IMG/VR virus record: IMGVR_UViG_3300037041_001100
Coordinates: 1-39,806 of that record
DNA: 39,806 nucleotides
Source of the DNA: a virus
Direction: 5' to 3' (one strand)
Below, piece by piece: positions 38,907 through 39,806 of this stretch. The notes beneath the pieces were generated by a model, which saw only the letters and a program-made list of their open reading frames with translations, had not been told where the DNA came from and searched no databases. The position numbers and the translations under genes are program-made. How positions within the stretch are numbered: the first letter of the stretch is position 1; each line of letters opens with the position of its first letter.

Positions 38907-39149
38907 ATGCAATACCGGTTCACAGACACAAACAAGACGGCGGCCACGGTCGATATGACCATGGGCGATATCGCAGAGCTGCGCGATGTGCTTACTGCCG
39001 CACACAAGGCAGAGCTTCAGGGCGTGTCCAAGTGGGCGCTGCGCCGCATGATCAAGACGCTGGCCGAGATGCAAGCCAAGGCGGCAGAGACCATGGCGTT
39101 CGACGCCAAGATGCTGGCCGAGACGGCCAAGCTTCCGGAAGACTTCTAA
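38907..39149 (+). CDS. Small rightward gene, unknown
   Basis: An 80-residue protein. The ATG at 38907 has GGAG six bases upstream; an ATG and a GTG further 5' are in frame but poorly placed. It is mostly helical and charged (FTDTNKTAATVDMTMGDIAE, then LRDVLTAAHKAELQGVSKWA and RRMIKTLAEMQAKAAETM), with no membrane segment or enzymatic motif. Orientation and a strong leader suggest an early product. I do not recognise the family. Confidence 0.78.
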   Translation: MQYRFTDTNKTAATVDMTMGDIAELRDVLTAAHKAELQGVSKWALRRMIKTLAEMQAKAAETMAFDAKMLAETAKLPEDF

Positions 39150-39197: not shown

Positions 39198-39428
39198 ATG
39201 CATGCAATGCAAGTGAAGCACCTGAAGGTCAAGGACCGGATCAAAAAGCTCCAGACGCTGGCCGCGCAGCTCGAGCTCGAGGCCATCGAGGCCGGGCTGG
39301 CCGAGCGCAAGCCAAGCCGGATCGAGGAATTCCGGTGGCCTAAGGGCGACGTCCTAGCCCGGTGGGGCGAAGAGGTTTGGGAGACCTACAAGCGGGAACG
39401 GATCGAGGAGCGGTTCAAGTGGAAGTGA
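39198..39428 (+). CDS. Small rightward gene, unknown
   Basis: A 76-residue, strongly charged helical protein (VKHLKVKDRIKKLQTLAAQL, then EAIEAGLAERKPSRIEEFRW and ETYKRERIEERFKWK). AAGGAT lies seven bases before the ATG. It is separated from the previous gene by a hairpin and has no promoter of its own in the 48-base gap, so it is probably cotranscribed. Function unknown; the high charge suggests a regulatory or nucleic-acid-binding peptide but nothing confirms that. Confidence 0.75.
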   Translation: MHAMQVKHLKVKDRIKKLQTLAAQLELEAIEAGLAERKPSRIEEFRWPKGDVLARWGEEVWETYKRERIEERFKWK

Positions 39429-39431
39429 CGG

Positions 39432-39451
39432 CAGGGGGCGCAAGCCCCCTG
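39432..39451 (+). other. Second GCAA-loop hairpin
   Basis: CAGGGGGC and GCCCCCTG form an eight-base stem with a GCAA loop, four bases after the stop at 39428. Its GGCGCAAGCC core is shared with the hairpin at 39157. A second hairpin abuts it. Confidence 0.7.
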
Positions 39452-39469
39452 ATCCGCCTTCGGCGGATC
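39451..39469 (+). other. Hairpin GATCCGCC/GGCGGATC
   Basis: A perfect eight-base stem with a TTC loop directly following the GCAA-loop hairpin (the two share one base). ATGTTCTATT follows; this is only a weak U-rich tail, so partial termination is possible. Confidence 0.6.
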
Positions 39470-39480
39470 GATGTTCTATT

Positions 39481-39509
39481 GCCTCTGTTCCTGTACCAGT
39501 AACAGAGGC
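39481..39509 (+). other. Hairpin GCCTCTGTT/AACAGAGGC
   Basis: A perfect nine-base stem with an 11-base loop that itself contains CTG-TAC-CAG. It is the third hairpin in 80 bases after the second rightward gene. No U-tract follows. Confidence 0.65.
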
Positions 39510-39540
39510 GCGGCGGGCGCGGCGCGGTAAACAATGGCCC

Positions 39541-39585
39541 CGACCCGACCCGACCCGACCCGACCCGACCCGACCCGACCCGACC
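39541..39585. repeat. Tandem CGACC pentanucleotide repeat, nine units
   Basis: Nine uninterrupted CGACC units, followed by a variant CGATC. The array lies between the hairpin cluster and the leader of the gene at 39668. Five-base units keep no reading frame, so it is unlikely to be coding. It could be a slippage-prone spacer or protein-binding iterons. Confidence 0.9.
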
Positions 39586-39597
39586 CGATCAACCCTA

Positions 39598-39626
39598 TTG
39601 CGTCCCATGGCGTCCCGTGATACTCT
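39598..39626 (+). promoter_or_regulatory. Putative promoter and leader of the gene at 39668
   Basis: TTGCGT followed by a spacer with ATGGCGT, then GATACT or TACTCT. CACGAAGGC (39638) and CAATGGAG (39653) follow in the same order as before the first rightward gene. This recurrence supports a common regulated promoter type. Confidence 0.5.
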
Positions 39627-39667
39627 TAACCCACGGCCACGAAGGCCGCTACCAATGGAGAAGAACA

Positions 39668-39806
39668 ATGGCAAAGAATCCCTTCGGCAAGTCGCGCCCG
39701 CAAGCGAACCCCTACGCTATCTATAAGGCGGGCGACTGGACTTGGCATGTGTGCAAGACCTACAAGGCCCCGGAAAGCGAGGCCAAGGACACATACGCGC
39801 GCTGGT
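39668..39806 (+). CDS. Conserved small phage protein (3' end outside window)
   Basis: The first 46 codons, starting at an ATG with GGAG shortly upstream. AKNPFGKSRPQANPYAIYKA, then GDWTWHVCKTYKAPESEA and YARW match a phage protein family I recall from cyanophages and other marine phages (N-P-F-G-K ... N-P-Y ... W-x-W-x-V ... Y-x-x-P ... Y-A-R-W-F), which has no proven function. It usually lies among early or replication genes, so this probably begins the replication region beyond the right edge. Confidence 0.75.
   Translation, partial: MAKNPFGKSRPQANPYAIYKAGDWTWHVCKTYKAPESEAKDTYARW

Follow-up and report, generated by a model that had tools for sequence, protein, structure and literature searches.

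Bacteria are known to have promoter repeats that vary in length, with Neisseria nadA as one example of a simple sequence repeat (SSR) contingency locus, and in the layout of lambda-type phages the origin iterons lie inside the replication initiator gene. Further bacterial SSR contingency loci, e.g., in Haemophilus, are described in the accessible part of one source (PMC2651432), and the lambdoid O protein is treated in that of another (PMC7466680). Repeats of a different kind belong to VIPR, in which, according to the accessible part of a preprint, the guide RNAs of phage RAMP proteins consist of 9-16 YNNGG repeats whose NN varies (PMC13142463). Here we describe a phage lineage in which several length-variable repeats stand before early promoters. 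At the level of titles and summaries, we found no paper describing such phage arrays.

The DNA analyzed (the window) comprises the 39,806 bases of one IMG/VR virus record and has about 60% G+C. Judging by its terminase, the phage is related to the marine Pelagibacter phages, the nearest named phages being 023Pt_psg01 (59.4%), Pelagibacter phage HTVC027P (58.8%), DSL-LC04 (58.0%), and HTVC023P (52.0%). A search for relatives among named phages at the DNA level gave no match, and Rfam and tRNA scans of the window returned nothing. Megablast with the repeat by itself likewise gave no match, which carries no information because low-complexity filtering was active. The last 127 bases (39680-39806) are identical, end to end, to L032:1-127 of another contig. 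Exact end overlaps of 127 bases are typical of neighboring contigs or edges of one k=127 assembly graph, and we therefore take L032 as the probable continuation of the window.

The array and its surroundings

The array is a perfect 50-bp microsatellite, (CCCGA)10.0, at 39539-39588 on the plus strand (100% match, 0% indels), and it contains the nine exact CGACC units at 39541-39585 from which the preliminary description had started. It is the sole perfect array of period 5-9 with at least 2.8 copies in the window. In 200 simulated windows of the same composition, the longest perfect period-5 run obtained by chance was 17 bp (Markov-1) or 16 bp (Markov-3), compared with the 50 bp observed, and a pattern search allowing up to two mismatches gave 9 matches against 0.20 expected. 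The concern that the repeat might be an assembly artefact can largely be set aside: this is unlikely, since 11 other loci have the array at the orthologous position.

The first early gene of the block, pA (38907-39149, plus strand), is preceded by a promoter-like block but no array. It is followed by pB (39198-39428, plus strand), a small gene of 76 aa that is conserved in array-bearing relatives, with tblastn matches of 71-97% in L055, L111, L035, L040, L070, L094, L072, and L116. Behind pB, folding of the plus strand predicts the three hairpins that had been said to precede the array, at 39433-39450, 39451-39469, and 39481-39509 (fold z-score -3.15). The second of these is terminator-like, is followed by ATGTTCTATT, and ends 70 nt upstream of the array; within 70 nt of the window's own array, no terminator was scored. 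As also proposed earlier, the array lies upstream of a promoter block, for which a sigma70-like promoter is predicted from the sequence at 39598-39626 (plus strand), 9 nt beyond the array end: TTGCGT at 39598-39603, a spacer of 17 nt, and TACTCT at 39621-39626, with TG before the -10 (extended -10). This block recurs in relatives, and its absence from the consensus promoter scan of the window reflects a weak match. Inspection of the sequence further revealed a short leader hairpin, CGGCC-ACGAA-GGCCG (39634-39648, plus strand), which precedes the 5' part of the downstream gene pC (39668-39806, plus strand); pC runs off the contig and, given the 127-base overlap, probably continues in L032:1-297.

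In addition to the array before pC (site 1), a second array, (CCCGA)8, is present at L032:700-739, behind a terminator and 11 nt before the promoter TTGCAT-17-TATGCC, in front of a DUF7227-like gene (site 2). A third CCCGA cluster in L032, comprising four blocks of 3.2-3.4 units each (L032:1766-1898), sits within an open frame (L032:1598-2209) that we label VRR-NUC-like and that matches phrog_2165. In several clades, the CCCGA unit lies in frame in this gene and yields GSGRV or VGSGS peptide repeats, and the length of this CCCGA-built linker varies between L032:1598-2209 and its homologs.

As in promoter-associated SSR contingency loci, the array is adjacent to a predicted promoter, and this adjacency extends to the relatives. 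A -35/-10 pattern match combined with at least four CCCGA in the preceding 110 nt selected 17 promoter rows from 11 records; in 16 of them the last CCCGA lies 6-12 nt before the -35, and in the remaining row 20 nt before it. The pattern left out site 2 of L116 (TTGTAT) and site 1 of L307 (TTGACG), the flanks of which show promoter-like blocks. In a broader set of 41 records, which form 32 site classes, promoter scores of at least 7 occurred downstream of the array in 19 classes and on the other side in one, compared with 7.1% in the controls, which were mononucleotide shuffles and not other spacers. In 17 of 29 site classes, an intrinsic terminator no more than 70 nt away is directed into the array, against 1.4% of mononucleotide shuffles. 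In 12 of these 17 classes the terminator lies on the other side, so that the terminated strand reads GGTCG, as it does in the L016/L086-type relatives with their flipped orientation. The placement of the arrays is conserved, but their orientation is not. These enrichments locate the element and do not prove a role for it, since any tolerated spacer between transcription units has terminator and promoter neighbors.

Other microsatellites were observed in these regions. CCTGTC, in three to five copies, lies directly before the terminator hairpin that precedes CCCGA at site 2 of L055, L035, L111, L116, L070, and others. Heptamer arrays of CCAAGGT/AGGTCCA, which are mutual rotations, occur upstream of TTGACA promoter-like sites in two different clades, at L207:4407-4458 (the contig of L116) and L237:8160-8203.

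Length and unit of the arrays among relatives

Array length is not constant among relatives, as the comparison of unit numbers suggested in the preliminary description made plain. At site 1, 12 records carry 4.2-10 CCCGA units: 10.0 in the window, 7.0 in L111, 6.4 in L070, L094, and L306, 6.2 in L055, 6.0 in L116, 5.6 in L072, 5.0 in L035, L040, and L211, and 4.2 in L307. At site 2, the range over 14 records is 3-12 units: 12.0 in L116, 9.2 in L308, 8.2 in L035 and L040, 8.0 in L032 and L111, 7.0 in L070, L094, L306, and L211, 6.0 in L307 and L072, 5.0 in L055, and 3.0 in L215. At least four units are thus present in 12/12 site-1 and 13/14 site-2 records, although some contigs are near-copies, and these length records do not represent independent events.

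The closest comparison is at site 2, where L035 and L040 have 8.2 units and L308 has 9.2 with flanks identical over 329 nt, as slippage predicts; unit-step variation between near-identical genomes is therefore represented by one pair of contig types. L116 and L308, with 12.0 and 9.2 units, differ by 2.8 units at a flank identity of 96.6%. L070, L094, and L306, on the other hand, have identical flanks and identical array lengths and are identical throughout. Of the slippage-type length variation proposed earlier, the part that holds is the existence of whole-unit differences between relatives at the same sites; a functional role of the array, whether in regulation, in insulation, or as an iteron, is a candidate only and unproven. 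The array itself is real, recurrent, variable in length, and tied in position to early promoters.

The unit also changes with phylogenetic distance. In distant relatives, the array in front of the DUF7227-like gene is built from AGGGCGC (L245, L248) or AGGGCCGC (L200, L235, L243, L244) in place of CCCGA. The sites of one genome tend to have the same unit: CCCGA in the main clade and also in L237 and L240, AGGGCCGC at two sites of L235, and AGGGCCGC together with its one-base variant AGAGCCGC at the second site of L200. Two arrays depart from one unit per genome: CCTGTC, beside site 2 in most main-clade members, and AAGGTCC, which in L116 lies upstream of the small terminase gene.

The earlier view that compact phage DNA rarely contains such repeats has to be qualified. 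In IMG/VR, (CGACC)5 occurs in at least 119 stretches, against 8 for the same-composition control (CCGCA)5, a lower bound that is dominated by one gene family and is no measure of the frequency of intergenic arrays. Among the 119 stretches listed, 30 belong to the window's phage group, as assigned by hand from protein matches, 64 lie in frame in replication-initiation-type genes, and 25 belong to neither. The in-frame CCCGA of the 64 initiation-type genes (among the 119 loci L007-L125, e.g., L021:4279-5130 and L083:1555-2337) encodes a PDPTRPDP linker, and the arrays in these genes may be a DNA-level origin element.

Possible explanations of the array

We tentatively favor, with a probability of roughly 0.4, the reading of the array as a slippage-made, G-quadruplex-capable spacer or insulator between transcription units. 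Replication slippage, which we infer as the cause because it explains both the perfect units and their unit-step changes, would make and resize a hypervariable pentanucleotide microsatellite. The lineage would keep several CCCGA arrays between early units, after terminator hairpins and directly before the next -35. The G-rich strand, (TCGGG)n, could fold into G-quadruplexes that hinder read-through, and the array might thus act at the DNA level to keep the promoter apart from upstream transcription, with its unit number largely free to drift.

The quadruplex potential is a prediction: by the canonical criterion (four G3 tracts, loops of 1-7), motifs are expected on the minus strand at 39554-39571 and 39574-39595, and the array's minus strand accounts for two of the three canonical motifs in the window. 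Folding with quadruplexes under RNA parameters gave -50.2 kcal/mol for one strand of the array and -4.4 kcal/mol for the other. The AGGGCGC or AGGGCCGC arrays of L243, L244, and L248 also form G-quadruplex motifs, on the other strand, and in the AGGGCCGC-bearing loci L235 and L200 no canonical motif was found. With respect to slippage, T7 DNA polymerase slips on repeats and stalls at structured ones, and structured repeats are depleted among those that change length, according to the accessible part of that study (PMC7441554), which counts against quadruplex formation driving slippage. HTVC023P-type phages encode PolA, as stated in the accessible text of their description (PMC9599517). Points against a spacer or insulator are the flipped orientation of some arrays, the two loci lacking a quadruplex motif, the equal lengths in L070, L094, and L306, and the regions of four named phages (HTVC027P, DSL-LC04, CRP-118, and S2B), in which no comparable array was found. 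Neither a pure promoter role nor an insulator role explains the in-frame CCCGA in the VRR-NUC-like gene.

Alternatively, the array may have no function at all and be a spacer microsatellite growing unchecked by slippage, with the common unit arising from seeding or recombination between sites. Spacers tolerate insertions, the CCCGA unit also invades a coding linker, orientation is not fixed, and both unit and period differ between clades at the same site. Such neutrality would leave unexplained the anchoring 6-12 nt from the -35 in 16/17 rows, the retention of at least four units in nearly all records of both sites, and the sharing of one unit among several sites of a genome, and we consider it rather unlikely.

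A further candidate is an operator, i.e., tandem sites for a phage or host regulator of several early promoters, bound at about -45 and upstream. CCCGA stands before two promoters of one genome, with the promoter on a fixed side and the orientation to it equal in close relatives, and L235 likewise has one unit, AGGGCCGC, at both of its sites. No candidate binder was found, however, and the gap to the -35 varies over 6-12 nt without helical phasing. Moreover, CCCGA occurs in coding DNA, its orientation is flipped in other clades, and pA, the first early gene, has a promoter-like block that lacks an array. An operator is unlikely in our view.

We regard as quite improbable a replication-linked element, either an iteron or an origin accessory, by which CCCGA arrays would mark origins like the iterons in the lambda O gene. 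This idea draws on the 64 of 119 listed (CGACC)5 stretches that lie in genes with replication-initiator features in unrelated phages, where 3/3 genes tested match phrog_2447. The arrays in initiator genes sit around mid-gene (median 0.55 over 58 proteins), several of them beside variable iteron-like repeats and an inverted repeat when read by eye, and a CCCGA run of 18-33 bp is present in five of eight sampled initiator genes of named phages. The remaining three have no array. In the relatives' loci, which are fragment contigs, no initiator homolog was found, the best 20 HMM matches being translated arrays; the arrays here are several per genome and at promoters; and the core of HTVC023P-type relatives consists of helicases, terminase, and DNA polymerase in the accessible part of the source (PMC9599517).

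The window's phage most likely carries a VIPR-type system as well. The protein encoded at L032:4562-5314 belongs to phrog_4652 (unknown function), and its AlphaFold2 model (mean pLDDT 81.9) has its matches among CRISPR Csm3/Cas7-type subunits (best E in Foldseek, 1.9e-05; best Z, 9.9 over 137 residues at 3.1 A), which points to a RAMP (Vipr) gene in the same phage, adjacency resting on the 127-base overlap. Behind this gene, at L032:5350-5830, are guide-like GGYNN repeats, in which NN varies and between which GGCGGTC recurs as a separator, and an accessory-like gene lies downstream of them at L032:5904-6389. The RAMP gene was found in 55 viral loci, 37 of which have dense GGY repeats on the same strand.

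It is nevertheless highly improbable that the CCCGA array is part of this system, whether as a blank guide tract or as a decoy of the RAMP protein. Its minus strand, (TCGGG)10, does read as YNNGG with NN = CG, L032 supplies both the RAMP-fold protein and repeats with variable NN, and ten units in this phase would fit guide RNAs of the length given in the accessible part of the preprint (PMC13142463). The NN of the array is invariant, however, and the in-phase units flanking 50 sites do not retain GGY, which is lost like other positions. None of 1,223 five-NN guide windows matched the array in full, and at four of five positions there was one match vs. one with shuffled guides. Periods of 7 and 8 occur at the same site in other clades, 54/55 VIPR loci lack a CCCGA array of at least 18 bp, and 0/10 VIPR-bearing records searched whole (G001-G010), which may be fragments, contain one. 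A conserved 3' tail structure is absent: by eye, sites 1 and 2 have different minus-strand sequences behind the array.

VIPR guides were also considered as regulators of the array, which found no support, there being neither a guide match nor GGY conservation. In a comparison of the guides with all loci, a one-base skip gave two eight-NN matches vs. none with shuffled guides, and other skip lengths gave three and one, so that the outcome did not exceed noise. Finally, a genome-specific repeat "dialect" (CCCGA, or AGGGCCGC in L235 and L200) at several early sites and even within a coding linker might be recognized by a factor that co-evolves with it and is guided by DNA or RNA. Given that a VIPR-type RAMP protein with pentanucleotide GGY/NN guides is encoded by this phage, (TCGGG)n could then be raw guide tracts that would become vrRNAs by slippage and then NN mutation; this idea seems far-fetched.

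Significance and comparison with known systems

In the phage lineage described here, the same unit recurs at different sites, and sister clades have another one. Should they be functional, the arrays could give phages a fast and reversible means of tuning early expression or of insulating transcription units from one another; if not, they would provide a clean natural record of how slippage acts on phage genomes. Since the lineage carries a VIPR-type system alongside the arrays, it might also be a good place to ask about the origin of guide repeats.

By terminase, Pelagibacter phages HTVC027P and HTVC023P are among the nearest named relatives of the window's phage, but they have 36% G+C, and a 25-kb region of HTVC027P is without a comparable array. 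The array shares with VIPR guide repeats the pentanucleotide period and a minus strand that reads YNNGG, and it departs from them in its invariant NN, in having no common tail, and in its distribution across relatives, which is the wrong one for such guides. Lambda-type origin iterons are likewise tandem repeats in early DNA, and CCCGA arrays do occur in the initiator genes of other phages; the array in the window, by contrast, is intergenic, one of several sites, and without an initiator homolog found. Bacterial SSR contingency loci differ in their setting, since the arrays described here belong to a phage, several with the same unit occur per genome, and no phase-variable phenotype is known, but they share with our locus a short perfect repeat at a promoter whose length changes by whole units.
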